From NCBI RefSeq assembly GCF_900114315.1, contig NZ_FOSQ01000001.1, positions 970,202-1,034,201 on the forward strand: DNA of 64,000 bases, written 5' to 3'. This document shows, one piece after another, positions 33,820 to 49,463 of the stretch. The notes beneath the pieces were generated by a model. It saw only the letters and a list, made by a program, of their open reading frames with translations. It did no database searches and was not told the DNA's origin. The translations under genes and the position numbers were made by a program. This DNA comes from Falsiroseomonas stagni DSM 19981. GTDB taxonomy: Bacteria > Pseudomonadota > Alphaproteobacteria > Acetobacterales > Acetobacteraceae. How positions within the stretch are numbered: position 1 is the first letter of the stretch; each line of letters opens with the position of its first letter.

Positions 33820-34550
33820 ACCCTCCAGGGGGAGAAATCGCCTGGGTGGAGAACGCGGCCGGCGGCGGCGATGTGCTGCTGGTCTGCGAACACGCCTCCC
33901 ACTGGATTCCGCCGCAATACGCTGACCTCGGCGTGTCGGAGGCCGATCGGCAGCGGCACATCGCCTGGGACATTGGCGCGGCGGCGCTGGCGCGGGGGCT
34001 GGCGCGGCGGCTGGATGCGCGGCTGGTGCTGTCCGGCGTCTCCCGCCTCGTCATCGACTGCAACCGCCCTTTGGGCGCGCCATCCTCCATCCCGCTGCGG
34101 AGCGAGGACACCGACATCCCCGGCAATGCCGGGCTGACGGCGGCGGAGATCGCCTTCCGCCAGTGCGCGTATTTCGAGCCCTTCCGCGCCCTGGTGGCCG
34201 GTGTGATCGCGGCGCGGCGGCCGGCCATGCTGGTGGGCGTGCACAGCTTCACCCCGGTCTTCCGCGGCGTGGCGCGCCCCTGGCATGCCGGGGTGCTCTA
34301 CGCCGACGCCTCGGCGCTGGGGGAGCGCTTGGTGGCCGGGCTGCGGGCCGACCCGGCGCTGGTGGTGGGGGCCAATGAGCCCTACCGCATCGAGGCCGAG
34401 GAGGATTTCACCGTCCCCATCCATGGCGACGCCAACGGGATCCCCGCCGTGCTGCTGGAGGTGCGGCAGGATCTGCTGGCGGATGCGGCGGGGATCGAGG
34501 CCTGGGCGGCACGGCTGGCGCCGCTTCTGGAGACACCTGTTGCTTTTTAG
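33816..34550 (+). CDS. N-formylglutamate amidohydrolase-like protein
   Basis: A 244-residue zinc amidohydrolase. Family marks are VLLVCEHASHWIPPQY, ARLVLSGVSRLVIDCNRPL, LVGVHSFTPVFRGVARPWH and IPAVLLEVRQDLLAD. HutG-type enzymes release formate from N-formylglutamate in histidine degradation, but no other hut gene is here, so the physiological substrate may be another N-acyl glutamate. GTG start overlapping the preceding TGA by 4 nt; the frame extends further upstream inside the transglutaminase gene. The gene ends in a small GTTGCT/AGCAAC stem. Confidence 0.85.
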   Translation: MNPPGGEIAWVENAAGGGDVLLVCEHASHWIPPQYADLGVSEADRQRHIAWDIGAAALARGLARRLDARLVLSGVSRLVIDCNRPLGAPSSIPLRSEDTDIPGNAGLTAAEIAFRQCAYFEPFRALVAGVIAARRPAMLVGVHSFTPVFRGVARPWHAGVLYADASALGERLVAGLRADPALVVGANEPYRIEAEEDFTVPIHGDANGIPAVLLEVRQDLLADAAGIEAWAARLAPLLETPVAF

Positions 34551-34657
34551 CAACTAACCCGTTTAAGCCGATTATGCCGTTTATGCGCATTTAGCACCGA
34601 TTTCGCGGGGGTCCGGGCGCGAACCGACCTCTGATCTGCGGAACATAGCGGAAACAC

Positions 34658-34670
34658 AGCGCCCGGCGCT
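34658..34670 (-). terminator. Weak hairpin after the heterocycle operon
   Basis: AGCGC-CGG-GCGCT followed on the minus strand by GTGTTTCC, 8 bp after the last stop of the eleven-gene operon. It is short and the T-run is poor, so a weak or Rho-assisted terminator is all that can be said. The rest of 34551-34657 is unusually AT-rich and shows no gene. Confidence 0.3.
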
Positions 34671-34677
34671 ACCCCTT

Positions 34678-35265
34678 TCAGCGCTGCCCGTCCCATTGCG
34701 CGATATCCGCCTGCGCCAGCCCGCCGACCCGCGCATGGGGTCGCCCGCCGGTGGTCATGGCCAGCGCGAAGAGGATCTCCTCCGCCCGAGGCGCATCCGG
34801 CACCACGCAGGAGATGCCGTCGAAATGGCTGCGCACATAGGCGGCGTTGCGGTGGTGGATGGGCAGGTCGAGCATGGCGCCCATCGGCCCCACCTTGGTC
34901 ATGGACGGCACGATGGACAGCGCCTGGCCCAGCAGCCCGCGCATCGCATAGCCCCCCGCCACATGCCACAGCGCGCCGTGCTCCAGCTCCCCCGCGCTGC
35001 CCACGATGCCGCCCTTGCCATAGGCCTCGATCCGCCCGGGATCGCCGCCGAGCCCCGCCAGCAGCCTCTCCGCCACCATCAGGCCGATCGGCTTCATCGC
35101 CTCCATCATCCACATCAGGTCGGGCTCGTAGCGGCCGGCGAAGGGGTTGCGCAGCACCACGGCGCACCAGCCCTTCAGGATGGGGGTGGCCAGCACCGGG
35201 CCGCCATCATGGCGCACCTCCTCCACGCAGAGGACGGTCTTGCGGATGACGAGGTCCTGGCTCAC
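34678..35265 (-). CDS. AA_synth family protein (DUF1185, BB2672-like)
   Basis: A 195-residue protein of the family named amino acid synthesis (PF06684) on weak grounds. The core VRNPFAGRYEPDLMWMME, the KGGIVGSAGELEHGALWH block and GPMGAMLDLPIHHRNAAYVRSHFD are recognisable. The true reaction is not established. It is the last gene of the eleven-gene operon and overlaps the UPF0280 stop by 4 nt, so in this organism its job is most likely in breakdown of the heterocycle, for example a ring or amide hydrolysis step or product handling; that is inference from context. Confidence 0.88.
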   Translation of the reverse strand: MSQDLVIRKTVLCVEEVRHDGGPVLATPILKGWCAVVLRNPFAGRYEPDLMWMMEAMKPIGLMVAERLLAGLGGDPGRIEAYGKGGIVGSAGELEHGALWHVAGGYAMRGLLGQALSIVPSMTKVGPMGAMLDLPIHHRNAAYVRSHFDGISCVVPDAPRAEEILFALAMTTGGRPHARVGGLAQADIAQWDGQR

Positions 35266-36101
35266 GCGGGGGTCTCCAGTGCGAAGGGCCGGCCCAGGAT
35301 GCGGCTGGCACTGGCCAGGCGCAACGCGGCGGCGATGATCAGGCCGTCGCGCAGGAAGCCCGCGGCGGTGGCGGCGCCGGCATCGAGGGCGGTAGCGATG
35401 TCTGCCGGGTTCAGCTTGCCGACATCGGTGGTGACGAGCCGTGCGCCCAGATCGCTGTCCGGGTCGAGGGAGCAGGCGGGCGCGCGGGCGATGGCGGGGC
35501 TGTCGATGTCCACCGCATTGGCGATCAGCGTGGCCGCCGCATCGGCGGTCGCGGCATCCCGCGCCAGCACCGTGACGGCATCGGCGATGCCCATGGAGAA
35601 GGAGCGGCCATGCCGGCCGGAGGTGGCGATGCCGCCGACGCCGTCGCCGCCGCGCAGCCGCAGCGCCCCGTCGAAACTCGCGAGGCGCGGATCGAGGGCG
35701 AGGCCGATGGCCAGGCTCTCCCCGGGCGCGGCGAAGACGGCGATGTCGCCGCCATCATTCACGAAGGCGCGGGTGAGGCCCGGCGCGGCCGCGCGCATGG
35801 TGGCGAGGAGGTAGTCCGCTACCGCACCGGCGACGGCGGCCATCGGCGTGATGAACAGGCCGCGCGCCGCGAAGGGCGCGCAGGCCGCATGCATCCGGCG
35901 CGCGACCGGGCCTTCCGGCATGGCGCCGAGGGGCTGGCGCAGCAGGGCCAATTCGCCGACGAGCTCGGGCAGGATGGCGGGGAAGCGGACCAGGGCCGCC
36001 TGCTCCGCCAGGGCCGCATCGCGGCCCCAGCCGCGCAGCACGACATCGATCGGCCCGTGGTGCAGGTGCAGCCGCCCATCGGCCAGCCGCGCGGCCTGCA
36101 T
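35262..36101 (-). CDS. UPF0280 family protein (ApbE-like fold)
   Basis: A 279-residue protein of the UPF0280 family, related to ApbE FAD:protein FMN transferases. Visible segments are FITPMAAVAGAVADYLLATM, AFVNDGGDIAVF (the NDGGD motif shared with ApbE), GGIATSGRHGRSFSMGIADAVTVLA and TADAAATLIANAVDID. No signal peptide, so cytosolic. It starts 3 bp after the stop of the 6-hydroxynicotinate-reductase-like gene. Because the characterised 6-hydroxynicotinate reductase carries covalently bound flavin, a flavin-attachment role here is an attractive inference. Confidence 0.88.
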   Translation of the reverse strand: MQAARLADGRLHLHHGPIDVVLRGWGRDAALAEQAALVRFPAILPELVGELALLRQPLGAMPEGPVARRMHAACAPFAARGLFITPMAAVAGAVADYLLATMRAAAPGLTRAFVNDGGDIAVFAAPGESLAIGLALDPRLASFDGALRLRGGDGVGGIATSGRHGRSFSMGIADAVTVLARDAATADAAATLIANAVDIDSPAIARAPACSLDPDSDLGARLVTTDVGKLNPADIATALDAGAATAAGFLRDGLIIAAALRLASASRILGRPFALETPA

Positions 36102-36104
36102 CGC

Positions 36105-37601
36105 CTATAGCGCGAAGGGCCAGGGGTTGGCGGCATCCCAGCCCTGGATGCGCAGCCCATCGCCCAGCCCGCGCAGCAGCGTCTCCACCGGCACGATGTC
36201 GCCCATATGCCCGCCGAGCCGCGCATAGAGGTCCCGCGGCAGGGTGAATTCGATGGGCGCGACCAGGGCGGGTGTCGGCACATGGCCGAAGCTGCCGCGC
36301 GGCATGCGCAGCACATCCGCCATGATGGTGATGCCGCCGCCGGGCCAGAGATAGACGGGCGCGCCACCCATCGTCACGCGCACCTCGCCGGATGCGACGG
36401 CGCGCGTCAGCAGCACGGGGTTTTCCGTGACGCCGGCACGCAGGCTGCCGCCCGCGCCCGCCATGAACAGCACGGTGCAGAGCGAGGGTTCGCAATTCTC
36501 CCCGATGCGGTCCACCACCTGGCGCACGGCATCGGGCATCGCCGCCGGCTGGGGTTTCAGTTCATCGTCCAGCACGCACCACAGCGCATCCTCCCCGGTC
36601 GTGGAGGTCATCAGCAGCCGCAGGCCGGGCCAGGCGAGTTTCGGGTCGATGCTTTCGATGATGGCGAGCGGATCGGTGATGTCGGTGCCGCCCCAGCCCA
36701 GGCCGGGCCGCGCCACCTGGAAGTACCGGCCGGGGGTGGAACGGCGGCCGCGGACGCGGATGCCGGCCGGGCGCATGGACAGCACCTTGCCCGCCTGGTG
36801 TTCCGTCAGCACGCCGGTGATGTGGTCATCGACCACGATCACCTCATCCACATGGCCCTGCCATTGCTGCGCGAAGATGCCGACAGCCGCGCTGCCGCAG
36901 CCGACCCGCATGCGGCGTTCGGGCACGCCATCCACGATCGGCGCCTGCCCGGCCTGGACGATGACGCTGTGGCCGCCATCGATGGTGAGTTCGACGGCCT
37001 CGCCCTCGCACAGTTTCAGCAGCGCCTCGCAGGTGACGACGCCTTCCTTCTTGCTGCCGCCGGTCAGGTGATGGACGCCGCCGAGTGAAAGCATCTGCGA
37101 CCCGTATTCGGCCGTGGTGACATGGCCGATCTGCTCCCCCTTCGCGCGCACGGCGGCGGTTTCGGGGCCGAGGTGCCGGTCCGTGTCGATCTTCACCTTC
37201 ACGCCGCAATAGCTGAACATGCCCTCCGTCACGACGGTCACGGTATCGACGCCGGCATGGTCGCTGCCGACGATGAAGGGCGCGGGCTTGTAGTCGGGAT
37301 AGGTGGTGCCGGAACCGACGCCGGTGATGAAGGCGCGGGAGGGGTCGAGCAGCTTGCCGTCCCACTCCGCCTCCGCGAAGGGCACCACGGCGCCGCCGGC
37401 ATCGACAACATGGGCCAGCGCCAGCGCGGGATCGGTGCGGACCAGCACGCCATCCTGGTTCGCGTAGCGCGAACAGGCGCCGCTGCGGCCCGGGCGGATG
37501 CGGCACAGCACGGGGCAGGCATCGCAGCGGATGATGCCGCCATCTTCCGCGGCCCCGAATTTCTTCGAGCGAGCCTCGGCGGAGATGTGGTCCCCACTCA
37601 T
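36105..37601 (-). CDS. 6-hydroxynicotinate reductase-like iron-sulfur flavoprotein
   Basis: A 498-residue protein with an N-terminal iron-sulfur motif, cysteines 26, 29, 33 and 43 (CDACPVLC...GAC), and further Cys in SYCGVKVKIDT, VTCEALLKLCEG and RVGCGS. The sequence style is that of Hnr, the enzyme that reduces 6-hydroxynicotinate to tetrahydro-6-oxonicotinate in Eubacterium barkeri nicotinate fermentation, which has iron-sulfur clusters and covalent flavin. A motif SGTT at residues 97-100 (GVGSGTTYPDY) resembles ApbE flavinylation sites. The start at 37601 overlaps the upstream stop by ATGA; a GTG at 37616 is less likely. The real ring substrate is inferred only. Confidence 0.82.
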   Translation of the reverse strand: MSGDHISAEARSKKFGAAEDGGIIRCDACPVLCRIRPGRSGACSRYANQDGVLVRTDPALALAHVVDAGGAVVPFAEAEWDGKLLDPSRAFITGVGSGTTYPDYKPAPFIVGSDHAGVDTVTVVTEGMFSYCGVKVKIDTDRHLGPETAAVRAKGEQIGHVTTAEYGSQMLSLGGVHHLTGGSKKEGVVTCEALLKLCEGEAVELTIDGGHSVIVQAGQAPIVDGVPERRMRVGCGSAAVGIFAQQWQGHVDEVIVVDDHITGVLTEHQAGKVLSMRPAGIRVRGRRSTPGRYFQVARPGLGWGGTDITDPLAIIESIDPKLAWPGLRLLMTSTTGEDALWCVLDDELKPQPAAMPDAVRQVVDRIGENCEPSLCTVLFMAGAGGSLRAGVTENPVLLTRAVASGEVRVTMGGAPVYLWPGGGITIMADVLRMPRGSFGHVPTPALVAPIEFTLPRDLYARLGGHMGDIVPVETLLRGLGDGLRIQGWDAANPWPFAL

Positions 37602-40306
37602 CGCATGGCCTCCCACAAGCGGTGCGGCAGGACGGGCACGCGCGTCACGCGCACCCCCGTGGCGTGGCGGATGGCGCCGAGGATGGCGGGGGCGGTCGGG
37701 ACCAGGGCGGGTTCGCCGACGCCCTTGGCGCCATAGGGGCCCTCGGGCTCCGGGTCCTCCACCAGGTGGATGCGGATGGGCGGCACGTCGCCGGCGGTCG
37801 GGATCAAATAGTCGTGGAGGTTCTCCGTGCGGCCGGGGATGTATTCCTCCATCAGCGCCAGGCCGAGCCCCTGCGCGATGCCGCCATGGATCTGGCCCAG
37901 CACAAGATCGGGGTTGATGGCGCGGCCGACATCCTGCGCGGCGACGATCTCCTCGACCTTCACGGTGCCGAGCTGCGTGTCCACGCGCACCAGCGCGATC
38001 TGGGCCGCGAAGCCGTAGGTGGCATAGGGGATGCCCTGGCCATCGGCGTCGAGCGCGGTGGTGGGCGGATCGTAGCGGCCTTCCGCATCGAGATCGGCGG
38101 GCAGGGTGGCGAGGTCGATGCCGCGCGCGGCGCCGGCGCTGTCGGTGATGGTGAGTGTGGTGCCGGCGAGCGAGATACGCGCATCATCGCCGGCATTGGC
38201 CAGCTTCAGGATCTGCGCCCGCAGCGCCTGCCCCGCCTGCATCGCGGCGCGGCCACTGACGAAGGTCTGGCGCGATGCGCTGGTCTTGCCGGCGTCATGC
38301 GTCAGCGCCGTGTCGCCCGTGACGATGGTCAGCGCGGCCACGGGCAGGCCCAGCGCATCGGCGAAGATCTGCGCGATGACGGTGGTGCTGCCCTGGCCGA
38401 TATCCACCGCGCCATTCCACAGCGTGAGCCGCCCGTCGCGCGCCAGCGTGGCGCGGATGCGCGACGGGTTGGACATCGACGTATTGCCGCAGCCATACCA
38501 CATGCAGGCGATGCCGGCGCCGAGGCGATGGCGCGGGTTGTCGGCGTTATGCGCGGCAACCTTCGCCAGCATCGCATCCCAATCCGGCTTCAGCGCATCG
38601 AGGCATTCCGGCAGTCCGGCGGAGGCGTGCAGCACCTGGCCGGAATGCGTGGCATCGCCGCGGGTAAGGGCGTTGCGCCGGCGGATGTCCCAGCGATCCA
38701 TGCCGAGTTGCAGGGCGAGATCATCGACCAGCGATTCGGTGGCGATCGCGGCCTGCGGCACGCCGAAGCCGCGGAAGGCGCCGGAGGGTGGTTCGTTGGT
38801 GTGCACGGCGCGGGCATGGGCCCGCACATGCGGCACGCGATAGGGGCCCGCGGCGTGGACGGGCACGCGGTTCGCGACCGTCGGGCCCCAACTGGCATAG
38901 GCGCCGGTGTTGAAATCGCCCTCCAGCGTATAGGCGAGGAAGTTGCCCTCGGCATCGGCGGACATGCGCGCCTGCATCTGCGCGGGATGGCGCTTGGTGG
39001 AGGACGCCATGCTTTCGGTGCGGCTGTAGGTGACGCGCACGGGCCGGTTCACGCGCCGCGCCGCGATGGCGAGAAGCGGCTGCACGGAGACATCGAGCTT
39101 GCCGCCGAAGCCGCCACCGCAGGCGGAGGGGATGATGCGGACCGAGTCTTCCGGCGTGCCGAGCACGCGGGCCACTTCCTCCCGGTCCATATAGGGCGCC
39201 TGGGTGCAGGCGATGATGTCCATGCCGTCCTCGCGGGGGATGGCGTGGCCGGCCTCGGGCTCGATATAGGCGTGCTCGACGAAGCTCGTGGTGAAGGCGC
39301 CTTCCGCGGTGGCGGCGGCCGTGGCGTGCGCGGCATCGGGGTTGCCGCGCGCCAGGCGACCCTGGACGAGGATGTTGCCAGGGGCGTGGGCGTGCAGCAG
39401 GGGCGCGCCATCGGCCCGCGCCGCCGCCACGCCGATCAGCGCGGGAAGCGGCTGCCAGGTGATGGGTAGGTCGGCGTCCCGCACCGCCTCCACCGCCGCG
39501 CGATCGCCGACCAAAGCGAGCACGGCTTCCCCGCGATAGCGCACGAAACCATCGGCCAGCACGGGCTGGTCCTTCAGCGCGGGCATGATGCCGAAGGCGT
39601 TGAGGCCGGGCACATCGGCTGATGTGAGGATGGCCGTGAGGCCGAGGCGCGTGCGGGCGGCATCGAGTTCACCCAGCGTGAAGCGCGCGCTGGCATGGGG
39701 CGATCGCACGACGCGCAGCCACAGCGCATCGGCGGGCGCGGCATCGGCGCCGTAGCGTTCCGTGCCCAGCACCTTGGGCCAGCCATCGAGGCGCGCGATG
39801 GAGGCGCCCACGGCCCCGCCAGCAGGCGCTTCCTGTTCGACGGCGGCGAAGCCCTGCGCGGCGGCCAGGATGGCCTCCACGATCTTCTGGTAGCCCGTGC
39901 AGCGGCAGAGCACGCCGCCGATGGCATCCCGCACGGCCTGCGCATCCGGCGCGGCGTCGCGCAGCAGCAGGTCGGCGGCGGCCATGATCATGCCGGGGGT
40001 GCAGATGCCGCATTGCGCGGCGCCATGGGCCATGAAGGCAGCGCGGAGCCTGGCCAGCAGCGCGCCCGCCTCACCCGACTGCATCTCGATGGTGGTGATC
40101 TCGGCGCCTTCCACCTGCGCGGTCGGGACCAGGCAGGCGCAGGCCTGGACGCCGTCGATCAGCACGGTGCAGGCGCCGCAATCCCCGGCCTCGCACCCCA
40201 CCTTGGTGCCGGTGAGGCCGAGGGATTCGCGGAGCGTGTCCGACAGCGGCGCGAAGGGCGCGGCATCGGTGCGGGCGGGTGCGCCGTTCAGGGTGAAGGC
40301 GATCAT
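37598..40306 (-). CDS. Molybdenum hydroxylase, fused 2Fe-2S and Mo-cofactor subunit
   Basis: A 902-residue xanthine-dehydrogenase-family protein. Residues 1-150 hold both [2Fe-2S] sites: Cys38/43/46/58 (GCEAGDCGACTV...CAC) and Cys99/102/134/136 (CGIC...CRC). The rest is the aldehyde-oxidase/Mo domain, with RDEDM-type substrate loops replaced by GHAIPREDGMDI, the cofactor stretches CGGGFGGKLD and GAFRGFGVPQA, and the catalytic Glu865 in GVGEPALVP. It would insert an oxygen from water next to a ring nitrogen. Small and large subunits are usually separate genes; here they are one. It overlaps the FAD subunit gene by 4 nt. Confidence 0.92.
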   Translation of the reverse strand: MIAFTLNGAPARTDAAPFAPLSDTLRESLGLTGTKVGCEAGDCGACTVLIDGVQACACLVPTAQVEGAEITTIEMQSGEAGALLARLRAAFMAHGAAQCGICTPGMIMAAADLLLRDAAPDAQAVRDAIGGVLCRCTGYQKIVEAILAAAQGFAAVEQEAPAGGAVGASIARLDGWPKVLGTERYGADAAPADALWLRVVRSPHASARFTLGELDAARTRLGLTAILTSADVPGLNAFGIMPALKDQPVLADGFVRYRGEAVLALVGDRAAVEAVRDADLPITWQPLPALIGVAAARADGAPLLHAHAPGNILVQGRLARGNPDAAHATAAATAEGAFTTSFVEHAYIEPEAGHAIPREDGMDIIACTQAPYMDREEVARVLGTPEDSVRIIPSACGGGFGGKLDVSVQPLLAIAARRVNRPVRVTYSRTESMASSTKRHPAQMQARMSADAEGNFLAYTLEGDFNTGAYASWGPTVANRVPVHAAGPYRVPHVRAHARAVHTNEPPSGAFRGFGVPQAAIATESLVDDLALQLGMDRWDIRRRNALTRGDATHSGQVLHASAGLPECLDALKPDWDAMLAKVAAHNADNPRHRLGAGIACMWYGCGNTSMSNPSRIRATLARDGRLTLWNGAVDIGQGSTTVIAQIFADALGLPVAALTIVTGDTALTHDAGKTSASRQTFVSGRAAMQAGQALRAQILKLANAGDDARISLAGTTLTITDSAGAARGIDLATLPADLDAEGRYDPPTTALDADGQGIPYATYGFAAQIALVRVDTQLGTVKVEEIVAAQDVGRAINPDLVLGQIHGGIAQGLGLALMEEYIPGRTENLHDYLIPTAGDVPPIRIHLVEDPEPEGPYGAKGVGEPALVPTAPAILGAIRHATGVRVTRVPVLPHRLWEAMR

Positions 40307-41148
40307 TCCCCCAACTCCCAGAGCAGGTCGCGCAGCAGGCGCAGCGCGGCGTCGCGGCGATAGGCGGCGGTGGCGCGGATGTCATCGATGGGGGCGAGGT
40401 GGTCGAGGTGCCGGGCCTCCGGCACCTTGTCCGCGTGATAGAGGGAGGTGCCGCGCAACTCACCCTCCAGCGCCGGCAGACGCTGCGCGGTGGCGGTGCA
40501 GGCGCCGATGGAAAGGCGCGCCATCAGGATGCGGCCATTCTCGTCGATGTCCACGACACCCGCCACCATGGCGATGGAGATGACGAGGTAGTGCCGCGCG
40601 CCGAGTTTGCGGAAGCCGCTGACGGCGCGGGGCATCTTCGCAATGTGCAGCGCCAGCGCGATCTCGTCGCGGGCGAGCGCCGTGGCGCGATAGCCCGTGA
40701 GGAAATCGGCGACGGGCATCATGCGCGTGCCATTGGGGCCCGCCACCTCCACGCTCGTATCCAGCGCCAGCAAATTCGGGATGCCGTCCCCGGCTGGCGA
40801 CGCGGTGACGAGGTTGCCGAGGATGGTGCCGCGGTTCTGCACCTGCACGCCGCCGACATGGCGGGCCGCCTGGCGGAGGCCGTCGAACTGTTTCGGCAGA
40901 TCGGCGCGCGCGACCTGCGACCAGGTGACGAGGCAGCCGAGACGAAAGCCATGCGGCGTCTCGGTGATGTCGCGCAGGCCGGGGATGGCCGTGATGTCCA
41001 GCACATCCTTGTGCGTCGGGTCGCCCCAGGCGCGGCGATTGGCGCTCGCGGGGTAGATGTCGGTGGCGCCGGCGAGGATCGCGACATCCTCGCTGGCGCG
41101 GATGGACAGCGCCTCCGTCAGCGTCGCGGGGCGGTGGTAGCGGGTCAT
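40303..41148 (-). CDS. Molybdenum hydroxylase, FAD subunit
   Basis: A 281-residue CoxM/XdhB-type protein. The FAD-binding segments AILAGATDIYPASANR (pyrophosphate loop) and VQNRGTILGNLVTASPAGDGIPNLLAL are clear, followed by the CO-dehydrogenase flavoprotein C-terminal domain (FRKLGARHYLVISIAMVAG). It takes electrons from the 2Fe-2S clusters of the fused large subunit encoded downstream. It overlaps both neighbours by 4 nt, so the Mo enzyme is produced in balanced amounts with the hydantoinase-type proteins. Confidence 0.92.
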   Translation of the reverse strand: MTRYHRPATLTEALSIRASEDVAILAGATDIYPASANRRAWGDPTHKDVLDITAIPGLRDITETPHGFRLGCLVTWSQVARADLPKQFDGLRQAARHVGGVQVQNRGTILGNLVTASPAGDGIPNLLALDTSVEVAGPNGTRMMPVADFLTGYRATALARDEIALALHIAKMPRAVSGFRKLGARHYLVISIAMVAGVVDIDENGRILMARLSIGACTATAQRLPALEGELRGTSLYHADKVPEARHLDHLAPIDDIRATAAYRRDAALRLLRDLLWELGE

Positions 41149-42872
41149 CGTGCCGCGCGCCTCGCCTGCGTGGCGGCTTCGTCCACCACGCCATCGCGCA
41201 GCACGACGCCCCAGAGGGATTCTGCCTGCGCGGTGGTGTAGGTGCCGCGCATCACGTCGCGCGCCACCAGCGCGGGGTCGCGCGTGAAGGGATCGCCATG
41301 GCCACCGCCGCCGGGGGTCATGACCTCCACGCGGTCGCCGGCGCGAAGCCGCAGGCCCTGGTCCTTGGAGAGATGGGCGGGGATGGTGGTTTCGCCGTCG
41401 CGATGCAGGCGCACGACATTGCGCGCGCCATCGCCGCCGCCACGCACACCAGGCGGGCCGAAGCGGCCATGATCCATCACGAAGCTTGCCTTCGCCTCGC
41501 CGCGCAGCAGCTCCACCTCGTAATGCACGCCGAAGCCGCCGCGATGGCGGCCGGCGCCGCCGGATCCCTCATGGATCGCGAAGCGGCGGAAGAGGATGGG
41601 GTAGTATTGTTCCATCACCTCCACCGGCGCGGTCTTGCTGATGCCGATGGTGGAGCAGCCATTGGTCAGGCCATCGGCATCGGCGGTGCCGCCATAGCCG
41701 CCGCCGGTGATCTGGTACATCACATAGCCGGCGTTGCGCGCGGGATCGAAGCCGCCGAGCGCGAAATTGCCGGAGGTGCCGGCGGGCGCGGCCCAGATGT
41801 CGAGAACGGGGGCCAGCGCCAGGAACACCGCTTCCGCCACGCGCTGGGAGACCTCCGCCGCGCAGCCGGAGACGGGGCGGGGATAGCGGGCATCGAGGAA
41901 GGTGCCCTCCGGCCGTGCCACGCGGATGGGCTCGAAGGTGCCGGCGTTGATCGGCACATCGGGGAAGATGTGCTTCATCGCGAGATAGACGGCGGAACAG
42001 GTCGTGGCCCAGACGGAATTCATCGGGCCCTGGCAGGGTGGGGAGGAGTCCGACAGGTCGAAATGCAGTTCATCGCCCGCGCGCGTGACAGTGAGGGCGA
42101 TGCGCAGCGGTTCGTTGACCACGCCATCGGAATCGACGAAGGCCTCGGCCTTGTAGGTGCCTTCGGGGATGCGGCGGATCTCTGCGCGCATGCGATTCGC
42201 CGCGCGGTCGCTTATGCCGGCGATGGCGTCGCGCAGCGTCGCCAGGCCGTAGCGGGCCACCATCTCCCGCAGCCGCTGTTCGCCCACCAGCAGGGCGGCG
42301 GCCTGCGCCTTGATGTCGCCGATGCGCTGTTCGGCCACGCGGATGTTGGACTGGATGATGGACAGGATCTCCCGGTCCAGCACGCCGCGCTTGAAGAGCT
42401 TCACGGGGGGCAGGCGGAGGCCTTCCTGCTCGACCTCCGTGGCATGCGCCGAGAAGCCGCCGGGGACCATGCCGCCGATATCGGGCCAGTGGCCGGTGTT
42501 CTGCAGCCAGCAGAACAACTCCCCTTCCACGAAAAAGGGCAGGGCGAAGCGCACATCCATGAGGTGCGTGCCGCCGAGATAGGGGTCGTTGACGATGTAG
42601 ATGTCGCCGGGCTCCGGCGTGGCGACGGCACCTTCGCGGATCAGGCGCACGAGATGCGCGGCGGAATGGGCCATGGTGCCGACGAAGACGGGCAGGCCCA
42701 ATTCGCCCTGCGCGATCAGCGCGCCATCCGCCGCGGCGTAGATGCCATCCGACCGGTCATCGGCCTCCGCGATCACGGGGGAGAAGGCGCTCCGGGAGAA
42801 GGCGATGTCCATCTCGTTGCAGACCTGCTGGAGGCCCGCCTGGATGACGGCGAGGGTGAGGGCATCCATCAT
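41145..42872 (-). CDS. Hydantoinase B/oxoprolinase family protein
   Basis: A 575-residue B (catalytic) subunit of the HyuAB/oxoprolinase family. Conserved blocks are FSRSAFSPVIAEADDRSDGIY, GDIYIVNDPYLGGTHLMDVRF, DLSDSSPPCQGPMNSVW, and the C-terminal GGAGRHRGGFGVHYEVEL and TPGGGGHGDPFTRDP. With the A subunit it cleaves a cyclic amide (hydantoin, 5-oxoproline, lactam) at the cost of ATP. In this operon it is the best candidate for opening the reduced, oxo-bearing ring. ATGA overlap with HyuA upstream. Confidence 0.92.
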   Translation of the reverse strand: MMDALTLAVIQAGLQQVCNEMDIAFSRSAFSPVIAEADDRSDGIYAAADGALIAQGELGLPVFVGTMAHSAAHLVRLIREGAVATPEPGDIYIVNDPYLGGTHLMDVRFALPFFVEGELFCWLQNTGHWPDIGGMVPGGFSAHATEVEQEGLRLPPVKLFKRGVLDREILSIIQSNIRVAEQRIGDIKAQAAALLVGEQRLREMVARYGLATLRDAIAGISDRAANRMRAEIRRIPEGTYKAEAFVDSDGVVNEPLRIALTVTRAGDELHFDLSDSSPPCQGPMNSVWATTCSAVYLAMKHIFPDVPINAGTFEPIRVARPEGTFLDARYPRPVSGCAAEVSQRVAEAVFLALAPVLDIWAAPAGTSGNFALGGFDPARNAGYVMYQITGGGYGGTADADGLTNGCSTIGISKTAPVEVMEQYYPILFRRFAIHEGSGGAGRHRGGFGVHYEVELLRGEAKASFVMDHGRFGPPGVRGGGDGARNVVRLHRDGETTIPAHLSKDQGLRLRAGDRVEVMTPGGGGHGDPFTRDPALVARDVMRGTYTTAQAESLWGVVLRDGVVDEAATQARRAAR

Positions 42873-44905
42873 GGCGTCACTCGGAGATTGCCGATGGCAT
42901 CGACGATGGCGCGCGATCCCGGTTCCAGCACCGTCGTCGCATCCGCCTGCTGGATGATGGCGGGGCCGGTGAGCACGGCGCCTTCCGTCAGCTTCTCCCG
43001 CTGCCAGACGGCGGCGCGATGCCAGGCGCCATCGGCATAGAGATCGCGGTCGCCGATACGCGCGGCGTCGATCCCGCCCCGGCGCGCCTCGGGGTCCAGC
43101 AGCGCGGAAAGCGGAAAGGAAGGCCGGCGGCCGATGACGGTGGTCAGCAGGTTCACCAGCACGGCGCGGATCTCCGGCAACTCCACGCGGAAGCGGGCGA
43201 AGTAGGCGGCCTCGAAGGCTTTCTGGATGTTCTCAAGTGCCATGTCGGCATGGGGCAGCGCGACGCGGATGAGGTGCGTCTGGCCGCGGAACTGCATCTC
43301 CGCGCTGTGCAGCACGATGATGTCGTCCAGCGCGGGCGCATCGGCCTGGATCATCGCGATGCCGCGGTCGCGCTGCATGACCAGCGTCGCGGCGATCTCG
43401 TCTTCGGGGATCTCGAACAGGCCACGATTGATGGTGTTGACGAAATCCTGGCGGAGGTCGGCGACCAGGCAGCCCAGCGCATTGGTCAGGCCGGGGCGGG
43501 CGGGGACCAGGACCTCCGGAATCCCGATCTCCCGCGCCAGCGCCACCGCATGCAGCGGGCCGGCGCCGCCGAAGGCGAACAGGCAGAAATCGCGGGGGTC
43601 GTGGCCCTTGGAGAGGGAGACCAGGCGGATCGCGCCGGTCATGTGGACATTGCCGAGGCGGATCACCGCCTCCGCCGCCTGCTCTACCGTCATGCCGAGC
43701 GGGCGCGCGAGGTTGCGCGCAAAGACTTCCCTGATGCTGTCGAGGGAAACCGCATCCTTCACCGCCAGCAGCCGCGCGGGGTCGAGCCGGCCGAGGATGA
43801 TGTTCGCATCCGTGATCGTCGGCCGCGTGCCGCCGCGTCCGTAGCAGATCGGCCCTGGCGTGCTGCCCGCGCTTTCCGGCCCCACGCGCAGCATCCCCGC
43901 GCGGTCCAGGCCGGCGATGGAGCCGCCACCGGCGCCGACGGTGCGCACATCGACCATCGGCAGGTGGATCGGCAACCCATAGGCGATGGAGAGTTCGGCG
44001 GAGACTTCTGGCACGCCGCCCGCGATCAGCGCCACATCGGTGGAGGTGCCGCCCATGTCGTAGGTGATGGCGTTGCGCAGCCCGCTCTGCGCCAGCGTCG
44101 CGGCCGCGGCCATCACGCCGGAAGCGGGGCCGGACATCACGGTCTTGGCGGCGTCGCGCGACACCAGGCGGGCGGAGACGGTGCCGCCATTGCCGTTCAT
44201 CACCAGCAGGTCGCGCTTGTGGCCGCGTGCCGCCAGTTGCTCCTGCAACCGCGTGATGTAGCGGTCCAGCACGGGCTGCACGGCGGCGTTCACCGAAGCC
44301 GTCGTGCCGCGTTCGTATTCCCGGAACTCCGAGAGCAGTTCATGGCCGAGCGTGACATGTCCGTTCGGCCAGATCCCGCGCGCGATCTCCCCCGCGCGGC
44401 GCTCATGCGCGGGGTTCGCATAGGCGTGGAGGAAATGGATGACGAGGGATTCGCAGCCCGCTGCCGCCAGCGCGCGCACCTCGCGCGCCACCGCATCCTC
44501 GTCGAGTGGCGTGACGACGGCGCCGCGCGCATCCATGCGTTCCGCCACTTCGCGGCGGAGTTCGCGCGGCACCAGCGGCTCGAACCCGCCTTTCAGCCCA
44601 TAGGGGTTGGGCCGTGTGCGGCGGCCGAGTTCCAGAACGTCCCGGAACCCCAGCGTCGTCACCAGGCCGACCTTGGCGAGTTTCCGCTCCAGCACGGCAT
44701 TCGTCGTGGCCGTGGTGCCGTGGATGATGAGGTCGAGGGTCGCGGGGGTGGCGCCCGCGGCCTCGATCGCGGCGAGCACGCCATCGGCCTGGTTGGCGAT
44801 GGTGGTGGGGACTTTCGCCAGGTGGATGCGGCCATCTGCGCCGCGCAGCAGCAAATCGGTGAAGGTCCCGCCTACATCGATGCCCGCGATCACACCGTCA
44901 GCCAT
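42869..44905 (-). CDS. Hydantoinase A/oxoprolinase family protein
   Basis: A 678-residue A (ATP-binding) subunit. ASKHA-type ATP motifs are DVGGTFTDLLL (residues 10-20), IHGTTATTNAVLERK, DMGGTSTDVALI, and the SAGSTPGPICYGRGGTRPTITDAN and FCLFAFGGAGPLHAVALA blocks. It phosphorylates the ring amide so that the B subunit can hydrolyse it. The length is at the usual value for separate HyuA. Its 5' end overlaps the LivF stop by 16 nt, joining the import genes to the catabolic genes in one transcript. Confidence 0.92.
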   Translation of the reverse strand: MADGVIAGIDVGGTFTDLLLRGADGRIHLAKVPTTIANQADGVLAAIEAAGATPATLDLIIHGTTATTNAVLERKLAKVGLVTTLGFRDVLELGRRTRPNPYGLKGGFEPLVPRELRREVAERMDARGAVVTPLDEDAVAREVRALAAAGCESLVIHFLHAYANPAHERRAGEIARGIWPNGHVTLGHELLSEFREYERGTTASVNAAVQPVLDRYITRLQEQLAARGHKRDLLVMNGNGGTVSARLVSRDAAKTVMSGPASGVMAAAATLAQSGLRNAITYDMGGTSTDVALIAGGVPEVSAELSIAYGLPIHLPMVDVRTVGAGGGSIAGLDRAGMLRVGPESAGSTPGPICYGRGGTRPTITDANIILGRLDPARLLAVKDAVSLDSIREVFARNLARPLGMTVEQAAEAVIRLGNVHMTGAIRLVSLSKGHDPRDFCLFAFGGAGPLHAVALAREIGIPEVLVPARPGLTNALGCLVADLRQDFVNTINRGLFEIPEDEIAATLVMQRDRGIAMIQADAPALDDIIVLHSAEMQFRGQTHLIRVALPHADMALENIQKAFEAAYFARFRVELPEIRAVLVNLLTTVIGRRPSFPLSALLDPEARRGGIDAARIGDRDLYADGAWHRAAVWQREKLTEGAVLTGPAIIQQADATTVLEPGSRAIVDAIGNLRVTP

Positions 44906-45603
44906 GTCGCCCGCACCTGCTCGTCATTCTCCAGCGCTTCCATCGTGCCGTTCCAGCGGATCTCGCCACGCTCGATGACGATCGCGCGGTCCGCGACGGC
45001 GGCGGCGAAATCGAGGCTCTGTTCGGAAAGCAGCACGGCGATGCCTTCCTCCTTCATCCGCAGCACGGCTTCCGCCATCTGCTCGACGATGACGGGGGCC
45101 AGGCCCTCCGACGGTTCGTCCAGCAGCACGGCGTCGGGGTTGCCCATCAGCGTGCGGGCGATGGTCAGCATCTGCTGCTCCCCGCCCGACATGGCGCTGG
45201 CGCGGCGGCCGCGCATCTCCGCCAGGTTAGGGAAGAAGGACCAGAGGCGTTCCGGCGTCCAGGGCGCGCGGCCGCCGCGCGCGGGGCGGCGACCGACCTC
45301 CAGATTCTCCGCCACCGTCAGGTCGGTGAAGATGCGGCGATCCTCCGGCACATAGCCGAGGCCCGCGCGGGCGATGCGGTAGGGCGCCCAGCCCGTGATG
45401 TCGGCGCCGGCGAAGCGGATGCGGCCCGCGCGGGGCGGCAGCATGCCCATGATGGCCTTCATCGTGGTCGATTTGCCGGCGCCGTTGCGGCCCATCAGGG
45501 CCGCGACCTCGCCCCGGCGCAGCGTGAGATCGACGCCGAACAGGATCTCCGCGGGGCCATAGCCGGCCTTGAGGCCGGTGACGTCGAGGACCAGGTCATC
45601 CAT
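44890..45603 (-). CDS. ABC transporter ATP-binding protein, LivF-type
   Basis: A 237-residue ATPase of a branched-chain-amino-acid-type importer. Walker A GRNGAGKST is at residues 38-46, the signature MSGGEQQML, Walker B DAVLLDEPSEGL and the switch His-region SEQSLDFAAAVADRA. LivF features are GYGPAEILFGVDLTL and RPARGGRAPW. With LivG it powers uptake of the substrate caught by the LivJ-type protein. Overlaps LivG by 8 nt. The substrate is probably the heterocycle degraded by downstream genes, not a branched-chain amino acid. Confidence 0.92.
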   Translation of the reverse strand: MDDLVLDVTGLKAGYGPAEILFGVDLTLRRGEVAALMGRNGAGKSTTMKAIMGMLPPRAGRIRFAGADITGWAPYRIARAGLGYVPEDRRIFTDLTVAENLEVGRRPARGGRAPWTPERLWSFFPNLAEMRGRRASAMSGGEQQMLTIARTLMGNPDAVLLDEPSEGLAPVIVEQMAEAVLRMKEEGIAVLLSEQSLDFAAAVADRAIVIERGEIRWNGTMEALENDEQVRATWLTV

Positions 45604-46378
45604 GCGCGGCGCGCCTCGCCCGCAGCGCGGCCTTGTGGCCCGAGGTGCCGAGGTAGACGCGCTGGACCTCCGGGTTCGCGCGCACCTGCTCGGGCGTGCC
45701 TTCGGCGATCACCTCGCCCCGCACCAGCACCAGGATGCGGTCGGCATGGGCGAAGACGGCGTCCATGTCGTGTTCCGTGAACAGCACGCCGATGCCGCTG
45801 CCCCGCGCGATGTCGGCGGTGAGTTTCATCAGCGCGGCGCGTTCGCGGGGCGCCATGCCGGCCGTCGGTTCATCCATCAGCAGCAGCCGCGGCGCGGCGG
45901 CCAGCGCGATGGCGAGTTCGACGCGCTTCACATCGCCATAGGCGAGTTCGCCGATGGGGCGATCCGCTTCGCCATCCATCCCGACGCGGGCCAGCAGCGC
46001 GAGCGCTTCCGCGCGATACAGCGCCGCGGCATCGGCCACCACATCGCGCGTGCGCCCGTGATGCGCGATCAGCGCCATCTGCACGTTGCCGGCGACGGAC
46101 ATGGAGAGAAAGGTCTGGGCGACCTGGAAGGTGCGGCCGACGCCCATCCGGCAGATCTGGCGGGGCGGCTGGCCGGTGATGTCCTGGCCCGCGAGGACCA
46201 CGCGGCCGGTATCGGGGCGCAGCTGGCCGCCCACCATGTTGAAGGTGGTGGATTTGCCGGCGCCGTTCGGGCCGATGATGGCCAGCATCTCCCCCGCCGC
46301 CAGCGCGAAGGTGACGTCATTCGCGGCGACGACGCCACCGAACTTCTTGTTCAGCCGCTCCACCGAAAGCAGCGTCAT
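45596..46378 (-). CDS. ABC transporter ATP-binding protein, LivG-type
   Basis: A 260-residue ATPase. Walker A GPNGAGKST is at residues 36-44, then GRTFQVAQTFLSMSVAGNVQMA, the Q-loop region, a signature variant LAYGDVKRVELAIAL and Walker B LLLMDEPTAGM. The start at 46378 overlaps the LivHM stop by ATGA; the frame is open far upstream, but that part lies inside the permease gene. It forms a heterodimer with LivF. The signature sequence LAYGDVKR departs from the usual LSYGQQR, as it does in several such importers. Confidence 0.92.
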   Translation of the reverse strand: MTLLSVERLNKKFGGVVAANDVTFALAAGEMLAIIGPNGAGKSTTFNMVGGQLRPDTGRVVLAGQDITGQPPRQICRMGVGRTFQVAQTFLSMSVAGNVQMALIAHHGRTRDVVADAAALYRAEALALLARVGMDGEADRPIGELAYGDVKRVELAIALAAAPRLLLMDEPTAGMAPRERAALMKLTADIARGSGIGVLFTEHDMDAVFAHADRILVLVRGEVIAEGTPEQVRANPEVQRVYLGTSGHKAALRARRAAHG

Positions 46379-48228
46379 GCCCGCCCCCTGAGCGCCGCGA
46401 AGGCGCCGCCCAGCCCGCGCGGGAAGATCAGCACCAGCGCGATGATGGATGCGCCCAGCAGAAACCGCCAGAAATCCGTCAGCGGCATGAAGATGTCCTT
46501 GATGGTGTGGAAGGCCGCGGCCCCCGCGACCGCCCCCATCACCGTCTGGATGCCACCCAGCAGGATCATCGCCAGGAAATCGACGGAAAGCGGGATGGCC
46601 AGCAGCGTCGGGTCGATGGAGCCCTTGGAGAAGGCGTAGAGCCCGCCCGCGAGACCGGCCGCGCCGCCGGCGAGCGTGAAGGCCAGCCAGCGATGGGTGC
46701 GGACATCGATGCCGATCGCATCCGCGCGCTGTTCCGAATCCCGCGCCGCGCGCAGCGTCGCGCCGAAGGGCGCATAGACCACGCGGCGGAGCGCGATGAT
46801 GGCCAGGATGGCGCAGATGGCGACGACGTAGTGATAGACGTGGCGCGAGGATGCCCAGGCGCTGGGCCAGACGCCGACCACGCCATTGTCGCCGCCCGTC
46901 ACCTCGACCCATTGGAAGCAGACGGCATAGGCGATCTGCGCGAAGGCCAGCGTCAGCATCGCCAGATAGATGCCGGAGAGCCTGACGACGAAGAAGCCGA
47001 ACAGCGCGGCGAAGGCGGCGCCCGCGATGGGGGCTGCGACCAGCGCCGGTTCCATGGGCAGCCCGCCCTTCGTCACCAGCAGCCCCGCGGCATAGGCGCC
47101 GAGGCCGAAATAGGCGGCATGGCCGAAGCTGACGATGCCGCCATTGCCGACGAGAAAATTCAGCGAGAAGGCGGCGAGGGCGAAGATCAGCACCTCCGTC
47201 GCCACCTTCACCATGTAGGTGTCGCCGAAGACGGGCACGGCCAGCATGGCGGCGATGGCGAGGCCCGCGATGATGCGTTCCGGCACGCCGAAGGCGCGAA
47301 TTGACAGAATACCCTCCGGCAGCGCGGCGCGCCCGGCGGCGGCTTCCGGCCGGCCGAGCAGCCCCCAGGGCTTCACCACCAGCACCACCGCCATCAGCAG
47401 GAAGACCAGCACCAGCGTGATCTTCGGAAACACCAGCACGCCGAACGCCTGGAGCTGTCCGATCAGCACGGCGGCGAGGAAGGCACCGGGCACGCTGCCC
47501 ATGCCGCCGATCACCGTCACCACGAAGGCCTCCGTGATGATGGAGAGGTCCATCTGCGATGACGCGGAGACGCGCGGAATCTGCAGGGCGCCGCCGAGGC
47601 CCGCGAGCGCGGCGCCGAGGAACAGCGTGCCGGTGAAGAGCATCGCCTGGTTCACGCCGAGCGCGCCGACCATCTCCCGGTCCCGCGTCGCGGCGCGGAT
47701 CAGGATGCCGAAGCGCGTGCGGTGCATCAGCAGCCAGAGCAGGCCGAGCACGGCGGGGCCGATGACGATCAGGAACAGCTCATAGGCCGGGAAGCGCTGG
47801 CCCAGGATCTCCACGCCATGGCGCAGGCCGGGTGCGCGCGGGCCGGGGATATCGACGGGGCCCCAGATTTTCAGCACGGCATCCTGCACCATCAGCACCA
47901 CGCCGAAGGTGGCCAATAGCTGAAACAGCTCCGGCACCTTGTAGAGGCGGCGCAGCAGCAGGAGTTCCATCAGCACGCCGAGCACGCCTACCGCGATGGC
48001 GGAGATCAGCACGCCCACGAAGAACAGCGTGGGCGAGCGGTCGATCTCCAGCAGCCAGGGCACCACCGTGACGGCGATATAGGCGCCCAGCATGTAGAAG
48101 CTGCCATGCGCGAAATTGACGATGCGCGTGACGCCGAAGACGAGGGTGAGGCCCGAGGCGATGATGAACAGCGCGGAGGCGCTGGCCAGTCCCGAGAGGG
48201 ACTGGACCACGATGAACCCGATATCCAT
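46375..48228 (-). CDS. ABC transporter permease, LivH-LivM fusion
   Basis: A 617-residue protein that holds both permeases of a branched-chain-type importer. Residues 1-290 are LivH-like (SGLTLVFGVTRIVNFAHGSFYMLGAY; MGSVPGAFLAAVLIGQ) and residues about 310-617 LivM-like (FSLNFLVGNGGIVSFGHAAYFGLGAYAA; RGLGGAFAALRG). About 17 helices in all. Usually two genes, so a single polypeptide is a fusion, and it gives a fixed one-to-one ratio. There is no frame break between the halves. The gene starts 5 bp after the LivJ-type stop. Confidence 0.93.
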   Translation of the reverse strand: MDIGFIVVQSLSGLASASALFIIASGLTLVFGVTRIVNFAHGSFYMLGAYIAVTVVPWLLEIDRSPTLFFVGVLISAIAVGVLGVLMELLLLRRLYKVPELFQLLATFGVVLMVQDAVLKIWGPVDIPGPRAPGLRHGVEILGQRFPAYELFLIVIGPAVLGLLWLLMHRTRFGILIRAATRDREMVGALGVNQAMLFTGTLFLGAALAGLGGALQIPRVSASSQMDLSIITEAFVVTVIGGMGSVPGAFLAAVLIGQLQAFGVLVFPKITLVLVFLLMAVVLVVKPWGLLGRPEAAAGRAALPEGILSIRAFGVPERIIAGLAIAAMLAVPVFGDTYMVKVATEVLIFALAAFSLNFLVGNGGIVSFGHAAYFGLGAYAAGLLVTKGGLPMEPALVAAPIAGAAFAALFGFFVVRLSGIYLAMLTLAFAQIAYAVCFQWVEVTGGDNGVVGVWPSAWASSRHVYHYVVAICAILAIIALRRVVYAPFGATLRAARDSEQRADAIGIDVRTHRWLAFTLAGGAAGLAGGLYAFSKGSIDPTLLAIPLSVDFLAMILLGGIQTVMGAVAGAAAFHTIKDIFMPLTDFWRFLLGASIIALVLIFPRGLGGAFAALRGRA

Positions 48229-48233
48229 CGATA

Positions 48234-49463
48234 TCAGCTGCGGCGCGCGGCGCGCACCTCGGCTTCCGGGAACATGAAGTCGGCGCCGTCGGCGTAGCGC
48301 ACATTGCGCATGGCGCCATTGCGGCCGCGCAGCACCGTCTCTCCCACCCAGGTGCCCATGGTGCCCTGCTGGTCGATGCCGCGCATGGTGACGTTGCCGA
48401 CGACGGTATCGGTGCGCAGGTCCTTGAAGGCATCCACCAGCACTTCGCTGTCGATGGAATTCGCCTTGTTCAGCAGATTCGCCACCACCTGCGCGGTGAC
48501 ATAGCCCAGCAGCGACCCCTTGCGCGGCGTGTCGTTGAAGCGGGCGCGGTAGGCGTCGATGAAGGCCTTGTGCGGCCCATCCGTGATCTGTTCCCAGGGA
48601 TAGCCGGTGACGATCCAGCCCTCCGGCGTCTCATCCCCCAGCGGGATCATGTATTCGGGCTCGCCCGTCAGCAGGGACAGCACGAAGCGGCGTTCGAACA
48701 GGCCGCGGGTGTTGCCTTCGCGGACGAAGGCGGTCAGGTCCGGTCCGAACAGCACGTTGAAGATGCCATCGGGGCGCGCCTGGGCCAGCGCGCCGACGGT
48801 GGCGCCGGCATCGACGCGGCCCAGCGCCGGGTATTGCTCCGCCACGATCTCCGCGCCCGGGATGCTGGCGGTGATCAGGCGCTTGAAATTGGCGGCGGCG
48901 GACTGGCCGTATTCGTAGTTGGGCGCGACGATCGCCCAGCGCCGCGTGGTGCGGCCGCGCGCCGCTTCGGTCAGCATCCGCGTCTGCATGTAGGTGCTGG
49001 GGCGCAGGCGGAAGGTGTAGCGGTTGCCCTGCGCCATGGTCAGCGCATCGGTCAGCGGTTCCGTTGCCAGGAACAGCCGCCGGCGCTGGTTCGCCAAATC
49101 CGCGACGGCGAGGCCGACATTGGAGAGGAAGGTGCCGGCCAGGAAGGCGCAGCCTTCGCGCGTCAGCAGATCCTCCGCCACGCGCACGGCGTCACCGGGT
49201 GTCGATCCATCGTCGCGGAAGACGAATTCGAGGGGCCGGCCCCCCATGACGCCGCCGGCGCGGTTGATGCCATCCACCGCCAGCTGGATGGCGTTGCGGT
49301 AGGGGACGGAGAAGGCGGCCATGCGGGAGTAGGAGTTGAGTTCCCCCACCTTCACCGGCGCGCCCTGCGCCTGCGCACCGCGCGCGCGGATCAGCGCGGC
49401 GGATGCGATGCCGGTGCCTGCCGTCGCCAACGCCGCGCGGCGGGTGAAGGAAATGCCAGCCAT
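48234..49463 (-). CDS. ABC transporter substrate-binding protein, LivJ-type
   Basis: A 409-residue periplasmic-binding protein with a Tat-like signal (FTRRAALATAG, twin Arg at 8-9). The receptor fold is shown by VKVGELNSYSRMAAFSVPYRNAIQLAVDGIN, GGVMGGRPLEFVFRDDGSTP and AGTFLSNVGLAVADLA. The mature protein should bind the substrate of the operon; family members bind amino acids, amides, urea or aromatic acids. It is the first gene of the operon and the only one with a gap upstream (129 bp), so the promoter must lie there. Confidence 0.92.
   Translation of the reverse strand: MAGISFTRRAALATAGTGIASAALIRARGAQAQGAPVKVGELNSYSRMAAFSVPYRNAIQLAVDGINRAGGVMGGRPLEFVFRDDGSTPGDAVRVAEDLLTREGCAFLAGTFLSNVGLAVADLANQRRRLFLATEPLTDALTMAQGNRYTFRLRPSTYMQTRMLTEAARGRTTRRWAIVAPNYEYGQSAAANFKRLITASIPGAEIVAEQYPALGRVDAGATVGALAQARPDGIFNVLFGPDLTAFVREGNTRGLFERRFVLSLLTGEPEYMIPLGDETPEGWIVTGYPWEQITDGPHKAFIDAYRARFNDTPRKGSLLGYVTAQVVANLLNKANSIDSEVLVDAFKDLRTDTVVGNVTMRGIDQQGTMGTWVGETVLRGRNGAMRNVRYADGADFMFPEAEVRAARRS

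Follow-up and report, generated by a model that had tools for sequence, protein, structure and literature searches.

A 64,000-nucleotide stretch of the genome of Falsiroseomonas stagni DSM 19981 (Alphaproteobacteria, Pseudomonadota; contig NZ_FOSQ01000001.1, positions 970,202 to 1,034,201), which we refer to as the window, contains eleven intact genes on the minus strand, running from 49463 to 34678, for an ATP-binding cassette (ABC) importer (LivJ, LivHM, LivG, and LivF), HyuA and HyuB, the two subunits of a molybdenum (Mo) hydroxylase, a homologue of 6-hydroxynicotinate reductase (Hnr), a UPF0280 protein, and an AA_synth protein. Based on comparisons with related genomes, this operon probably encodes the reductive nicotinate pathway in a HyuAB-type form, in which ATP-driven lactam opening would replace enamidase. 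The order of import, Mo-dependent hydroxylation, reduction by the Hnr homologue, and ATP-dependent lactam opening, which a first-pass annotation of the window had suggested, is supported by these comparisons.

The route through 1,4,5,6-tetrahydro-6-oxonicotinate (THON) has been described for Eubacterium barkeri and Azorhizobium caulinodans (PMC9304392, in excerpts). In the same excerpts, the E. barkeri pathway comprises Mo-dependent hydroxylation, reduction by Hnr to THON, and hydrolytic ring opening, a succession that resembles the window operon. For the latter, we infer from sequence what is taken up, how each step proceeds, what is formed, and that the genes are transcribed together. In the proposed pathway, LivJ, LivHM, LivG, and LivF would import nicotinate or a close relative that can be 6-hydroxylated; the FAD and FeS/Mo subunits of the Mo hydroxylase would convert nicotinate to 6-hydroxynicotinate; Hnr would reduce 6-hydroxynicotinate to the six-membered lactam THON; HyuA would activate the lactam with ATP; and HyuB would hydrolyze it at a metal site to the enamine form of 2-formylglutarate, from which ammonia would then be lost. 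HyuAB would take the part that enamidase has in E. barkeri and sister clusters, and UPF0280 would be a dedicated partner of Hnr, possibly its flavin transferase.

Besides having HyuAB in place of enamidase, the window operon differs from the E. barkeri system in that its FeS/Mo subunit is one fused chain, whereas the large and medium Mo chains are separate in the nicotinate dehydrogenase structure 3hrd, and in that the importer lies within the operon; no further pathway genes were found among the flanking genes scanned in the window. The available parts of PMC3511419 describe a cluster in Azorhizobium and Bradyrhizobiaceae with the genes for the first three E. barkeri steps and a putative nicotinate ABC transporter. 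Going by that partial description, the first three steps would include enamidase, whereas the window has HyuAB. The window cluster is a widespread variant of this nicotinate (Hnr) cluster. The importer, which the first-pass annotation had singled out as a distinguishing feature, is present but not special to the window operon, since the published cluster also has one.

It is fairly unlikely that the nicotinate cluster has already been published in its HyuAB form, which would be compatible with our explanation. The cluster described in PMC3511419, as far as the available text goes, includes Hnr, an importer, and two conserved unknown proteins. On the other hand, no paper was found that joins "hydantoinase" with "hydroxynicotin" or a nicotinate term, in a search that mostly excluded subscription literature. 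A 2006 paper on E. barkeri reportedly lists nine Proteobacteria with the first three genes.

HyuB and enamidase are almost mutually exclusive in genomes with Hnr

In a scan of one genome per species, at least 596 stretches matched, of which at least 586 encode a relative; the 80 best matches form the set of named loci. The gene caller used on the loci was crude, often giving wrong frames, and the counts below rest on tblastn or genome searches. In the locus from Paracraurococcus ruber (L042), HyuAB was not in view, and an amidohydrolase matched the E. barkeri enamidase 2vun with an E value of 2.1e-110 (next match, 1.3e-5). No enamidase orthologue was found in the genome of F. stagni, the best of eight matches being a short piece with an E value of 5.8e-9.

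For the whole-genome searches, we used cut-offs of E ≤1e-150 for enamidase and E ≤1e-235 for HyuB. In a class-level sample of 389 genomes, Hnr had a match in 92 and a strong match in 83, of which 80 were searched whole; left out were G000, in which enamidase was searched separately, and G320 and G172, in which Hnr is cut by a contig end. Enamidase was present in 32 of these 80 genomes and HyuB in 47, with none having both and one (G365) having neither. A phylum-level sample of 396 genomes had Hnr in 40, and removal of six seen before left 34 (30 of the class and 4 from outside it). This second set comprised 22 genomes with enamidase and 14 with HyuB, including 2 with both (G485 and G514) and none with neither. 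All four genomes from outside the class carry enamidase; among the named loci from outside the class, HyuA is present in L071 and L076, from a Burkholderiales and a Thiotrichales metagenome-assembled genome (MAG), respectively. Pooling the two sets gave 114 Hnr genomes, of which 52 have enamidase without HyuB, 59 have HyuB without enamidase, 2 have both, and 1 has neither, i.e., 111 have exactly one of the two. Fisher tests of exclusion gave 1.5e-21 (80 genomes) and 7e-29 (114 genomes); as the genomes are related, these values are not probabilities of independent events.

In control searches of 80 Hnr-negative genomes of the class, hand-picked at even steps, the same cut-offs identified enamidase in one genome and HyuB in two, and there were five weaker HyuB matches. 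Within approximately 10 kb on each side, HyuA and enamidase were found in 33 and 28 of the 80 named loci, respectively (neither in 19), and in 33 and 21 of 82 class loci (neither in 28); no locus in either set had both. Mutual exclusion of HyuB and enamidase is near-complete, and the comparative evidence that HyuAB would stand in for enamidase is strong. Together with the 2vun match in P. ruber and the missing orthologue in F. stagni, this exclusion bears out the resemblance to the E. barkeri pathway, with enamidase exchanged for HyuAB, that had been proposed from the window sequence.

The HyuAB and enamidase types alternate on the Hnr tree. A first tree was made with 153 of 163 Hnr loci, 10 having been dropped for length or coverage; with 135 proteins labelled (77 HyuAB and 58 enamidase) and 18 unlabelled, it has at least 13 label changes, 7 of which are forced by supported branches. 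A second tree, with 76 class loci plus the window and labels from whole genomes (L128, L139, L141, L169, L170, and L171 were left out of the 82), has 10 label changes, of which 5 are forced by supported branches. Both trees are unrooted, and the label changes carry no direction.

In a separate observation, G060, which has no Hnr match, contains an enamidase orthologue (L174:9504-10673).

Nicotinate is the probable substrate

Homologues of the window Hnr with 60-78% identity were found on 26 plasmid records, in which 17 are named 6-hydroxynicotinate reductase, 3 are hypothetical, and 6 have no feature at that position. Eleven of the 26 records were read, including 3 without annotation in the stretch, and all 11 were typed by tblastn. 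Four regions (Neorhizobium, Allorhizobium, Rhizobium lusitanum, and Paracoccaceae La 6) have NicB and HyuAB, one (Comamonadaceae) has NicB and enamidase, two have the FAD/Mo enzyme and HyuAB, three have the FAD/Mo enzyme and enamidase, and one has HyuAB with no Mo enzyme in view. In the four regions with NicB and HyuAB, NicB replaces the FAD/Mo enzyme. No Mo enzyme was caught at the thresholds used in 24 of the 163 loci. Around a fixed Hnr-UPF0280 core, both the enzyme of the first step and the ring opener can be exchanged.

The NicB protein of L177 contains three CxxCH sites, and its molybdopterin domains are permuted. Its assignment as a nicotinate dehydrogenase rests on the depositors' names and on its neighbours; two records annotate the gene as nicotinate dehydrogenase subunit B. 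NicB proteins form a large family, with 224 plasmid records at E 1e-100. In two Rhizobium plasmids, NicB homologues with 66% identity have as neighbours genes annotated as a MarR regulator, an FAD-dependent monooxygenase, an alpha/beta hydrolase, a leucyl aminopeptidase, an isochorismatase or N-carbamoylsarcosine amidohydrolase, and, in one of the plasmids, an Asp/Glu racemase. We take these neighbours to be counterparts of nicR, nicC, nicD, nicF, and nicX of the Pseudomonas nic pathway.

Because four sister clusters pair HyuAB with a NicB-type enzyme and the published cluster is a nicotinate cluster, the heterocycle, which the first-pass annotation had left unnamed, is probably nicotinate. 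The main argument for this substrate is the exchange of enzymes around the Hnr-UPF0280 core, in which one of the alternative first enzymes is of a nicotinate dehydrogenase type.

Evidence against the nicotinate pathway and other possible substrates

Several observations weigh against a nicotinate pathway with HyuAB as the substitute for enamidase. First, NicB together with HyuAB was found only in plasmid records; among the 163 loci in the genome sets, NicB occurs in a single one, which belongs to the enamidase type. Second, the best single-chain structure match of the window FeS/Mo subunit is aldehyde oxidoreductase (379.5 bits), while Mo chains A and B of 3hrd score 268.1 and 209.9 bits, respectively; because these two chains correspond to a single one in the window, this comparison is not decisive. 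Third, the window Hnr was identified via the named plasmid homologues and not via the E. barkeri or Azorhizobium protein. Fourth, the 77-row tree has five independent pairs on supported branches (p = 0.0625), and the genomes are related. Fifth, G485 and G514 hold both ring openers, and in each of these genomes the two openers and Hnr lie on three contigs; the HyuB gene of G514 has an in-frame stop, and replacement is perhaps in progress in these genomes. Sixth, an enamidase-like paralogue with a weaker match (38-43% identity, E 1e-76 to 1e-95) is present in three HyuB genomes (G076, G215, and G376); these paralogues were not counted, and counting them would place the three genomes in both groups. 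In addition, the MarR regulator, ferredoxin, and reductase of some relatives had no match at 30001-55000 of the window, and no activity, transcript, or growth data were found for the strain or for any HyuAB cluster.

Finally, HyuB orthologues are present in two Hnr-negative genomes, G164 and G229, beside a different Mo hydroxylase, and these clusters perhaps belong to another heterocycle pathway. The large subunit of the adjoining Mo hydroxylase in G229 (L172:9122-15269) and G164 (L173:5503-11641) is approximately 780 amino acids (aa) long and 28-29% identical to that of the window.

HyuAB can serve other substrates, as its presence in G164 and G229 without Hnr indicates, and an alternative in which the HyuAB type serves another pyridine, a diazine, or a substituted nicotinate keeps a real share of the probability. 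Under this alternative, enamidase would be unable to open the reduced lactam, and HyuAB would track a change of substrate. Two substrate types would also give mutual exclusion, the structure matches leave the substrate of the window Mo enzyme undecided, and the restriction of NicB beside HyuAB to plasmid records fits this explanation as well. We nevertheless consider it unlikely because the two types alternate repeatedly on one Hnr tree, four HyuAB clusters have a NicB-type enzyme, and in two HyuAB clusters the MarR regulator bears the annotation NicR.

If HyuAB does replace enamidase in nicotinate degradation, an energy-spending ring-opening step would be added to the degradation pathway of a vitamin (B3), and two unrelated enzymes exchanged several times within one pathway would be a clean case of non-orthologous replacement. 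THON would also become a candidate substrate for genes annotated as hydantoinase, oxoprolinase, or acetophenone carboxylase. The genome comparisons also tie the uncharacterized family UPF0280 to one enzyme, Hnr, with a testable role in its maturation.

HyuA and HyuB carry the ATP motifs and metal-site residues of caprolactamase

Both HyuAB subunits are homologous to those of CapAB, OplAB, and N-methylhydantoinase. The window pair keeps both the ATP motifs of CapA and the metal-site residues needed for caprolactamase activity (PMC8453981, in part). HyuA has DVGGT at 10, DMGGT at 283, and GSTPGP at 347, i.e., all of the motifs DxGGT, DxGGT, and GxxPGP. D39, H103, D106, and H128 of HyuB align with the CapB metal ligands, and the Asp-His-Asp-His site is present according to both the alignment and a pattern search. 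The best structure matches of HyuA are N-methylhydantoinase and then CapA, and that of HyuB is CapB (6yra_B). The window pair differs from CapAB in that it falls below the caprolactamase equivalog cut-offs NF050156 and NF050157 (485.5 and 308 bits versus 1000 each) and in its operon context, which is pyridine catabolism. ATP-driven opening of delta-valerolactam is known from the related OplAB (PMC11033972, available in part); THON, like delta-valerolactam, is a six-membered lactam.

Although acetone and acetophenone carboxylases belong to the HyuAB family and the genes are annotated apc3/apc4 in two records, it is very unlikely that HyuAB acts as a carboxylase, or opens some other lactam that is imported, with the ring opened elsewhere, because HyuA scores 485.5 bits with CapA versus 302.8 bits for the gamma subunit of acetophenone carboxylase, N-methylhydantoinase is the best structure match of HyuA, and 59 of the 60 enamidase-negative genomes among the 114 with Hnr have HyuB.

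The same HyuAB pair is labelled variously as hydantoinase/oxoprolinase, N-methylhydantoinase, or acetophenone carboxylase in L176:3513-7252, L177:15638-19431, L182:16104-19939, and L183:8759-12558.

UPF0280 is a candidate flavin transferase for Hnr

For the Hnr homologue, scans with Pfam and NCBIfam models gave no match at E 0.001, and sequence searches against solved structures gave only matches with E values of 0.29 or worse. Its AlphaFold2 model was poor (predicted local distance difference test [pLDDT] score of 59.9) and was not used for a fold search. Among 153 Hnr homologues, eight cysteines are at least 99% conserved. In L169 (genome G019), Hnr is apparently split into two overlapping pieces in different frames. 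By eye, 2Fe-2S ferredoxin and reductase genes lie within the cluster in L030:5862-6179 and L032:12993-14505, which would be a possible electron supply to Hnr.

UPF0280 had a match in all 80 Hnr-positive genomes and in none of the 80 Hnr-negative genomes. It follows Hnr within 1 kb on the same strand in 79 of the 82 class loci (one further locus has it at a distance of 1.5 kb, and the other two are cut short) and in 76 of the 80 named loci (two have it further off, and two have none in view). The AlphaFold2 model of UPF0280 has a pLDDT of 92.2. In a Foldseek search, the model matched two chains of 2o34, a DUF375 protein, followed at ranks 3-41 exclusively by ApbE, FmnB, or flavin-trafficking FMN transferases, with E values of 3.8e-5 to FmnB and 4.8e-5 to ApbE. 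The predicted fold thus resembles that of ApbE, but the TM-scores are modest (0.30-0.49), the identity is 11-19%, and the score against the Pfam ApbE model (21.8 bits) is below the cut-off of 25.6.

ApbE proteins have a sequence motif around a histidine. In Vibrio cholerae ApbE, the conserved residues are Ser241, His257, and Asp285, and the target motif in the partner is D-x-x-[ST]-G-A-[ST]. Of three hand-picked alignments (A1, A2, and A3, with 31, 22, and 27 rows, respectively), A3 shows that UPF0280 keeps TSG and ADAAAT and, unlike ApbE, has no conserved His between them, the correspondence having been set by eye. The E. barkeri Hnr reportedly carries a covalent flavin. The exact ApbE flavinylation motif occurs in none of the 153 Hnr proteins. 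A looser pattern, [DE]-x-x-[ST]-x-x-[ST], is kept at residues 124-130 in all 153; it reads D-T-V-T-V-V-T in the window, and its last residue is Thr in 116 and Ser in 37. Patterns of this kind occur at 8 of 64 spacings tried, which makes the looser motif weak evidence.

Based on its restriction to Hnr genomes and its ApbE-like fold, UPF0280 may attach the flavin of Hnr, although the apparent lack of the catalytic histidine of ApbE and of the standard target motif in Hnr speaks against this. More specifically, we tentatively put forward a joint proposal in which HyuAB would be an ATP-dependent THON lactamase that was repeatedly swapped with enamidase, and UPF0280 would be a divergent flavin transferase of the ApbE type that acts in the cytoplasm and serves Hnr exclusively, with the covalent flavin at the conserved Thr/Ser 130 of D-x-V-T-V-V-[S/T]; taken as a whole, this proposal is possible but on balance doubtful. 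Among the literature matches listed, the name UPF0280 was not found.

For AA_synth, a role in branched-chain amino acid metabolism has been suggested from ABC-transporter neighbours (PMC2954203, in the text available). Such a role is not needed here, as ABC-transporter neighbours also fit a nicotinate cluster. A tandem pair of AA_synth genes follows UPF0280 in L176:14341-15500, L185:15314-16476, and L186:15290-16455; the window has one copy.

Layout of the operon and its flanks

The eleven genes are listed in Table 1. The first-pass annotation had them read in one direction without stating the strand, which is the minus strand, and family scans agree with the names that it gave to the ten genes other than Hnr. 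The longest open reading frame of LivG begins at 46912 and the gene start is at 46378; that of Hnr begins with GTG at 37616, and the ATG at 37601 gives the 4-nucleotide overlap. With these two starts, the ten junctions are, from 5' to 3', a gap of 5, overlaps of 4, 8, 16, 4, 4, 4, and 4, a gap of 3, and an overlap of 4 nucleotides, exactly as first reported.

Table 1. Genes of the proposed nicotinate operon in the window, in order of transcription
Product	Position	Strand	Family or basis
LivJ-type periplasmic binding protein of ABC importer, 409 aa	48234..49463	-	Peripla_BP_6, 203.9 bits
Fused LivH-LivM permease, 617 aa	46375..48228	-	Two BPD_transp_2 stretches in one protein
LivG ATPase, 260 aa	45596..46378	-	ABC_tran and BCA_ABC_TP_C
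LivF ATPase, 237 aa	44890..45603	-	ABC_tran
HyuA, ATP-binding subunit of proposed THON lactamase, 678 aa	42869..44905	-	Hydantoinase_A
HyuB, metal-site subunit of proposed THON lactamase, 575 aa	41145..42872	-	Hydantoinase_B
FAD subunit of Mo hydroxylase, 281 aa	40303..41148	-	FAD_binding_5 and CO_deh_flav_C
Fused 2Fe-2S/molybdopterin subunit, proposed nicotinate dehydrogenase, 902 aa	37598..40306	-	Fer2, Fer2_2, MoCoBD_1, MoCoBD_2
6-Hydroxynicotinate reductase homologue Hnr, 498 aa from ATG	36105..37601	-	Homologues so named in plasmid records
UPF0280, ApbE-like fold, proposed Hnr partner, 279 aa	35262..36101	-	NF003322, above cut-off
AA_synth (DUF1185) protein, 195 aa	34678..35265	-	PF06684; structures 3byq, 2qtp

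The upstream neighbour (49593-50651), 129 bp away and read in the same direction, encodes an FkbM methyltransferase domain. A consensus scan of 34200-34700 identified no terminator- or promoter-like sites. The assembly comprises 6.38 Mb in 44 contigs, and Hnr is present as a single copy in the genome.

Conservation of the gene order

Among the matches listed, the nearest named loci are those of Falsiroseomonas algicola and Roseomonas ponticola, in which Hnr is 93% identical to that of the window. A search for the same order elsewhere, as the first-pass annotation had advised, found it in L002, L003, and L004, where the order from LivHM through AA_synth is kept and LivJ lies beyond the fetched flank. 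The gene order is conserved beyond chance. A record titled as the chromosome of a Mesoflavibacter sp. MAG (L081) also has the cluster, at 71% Hnr identity, and is either mislabelled or a case of transfer.

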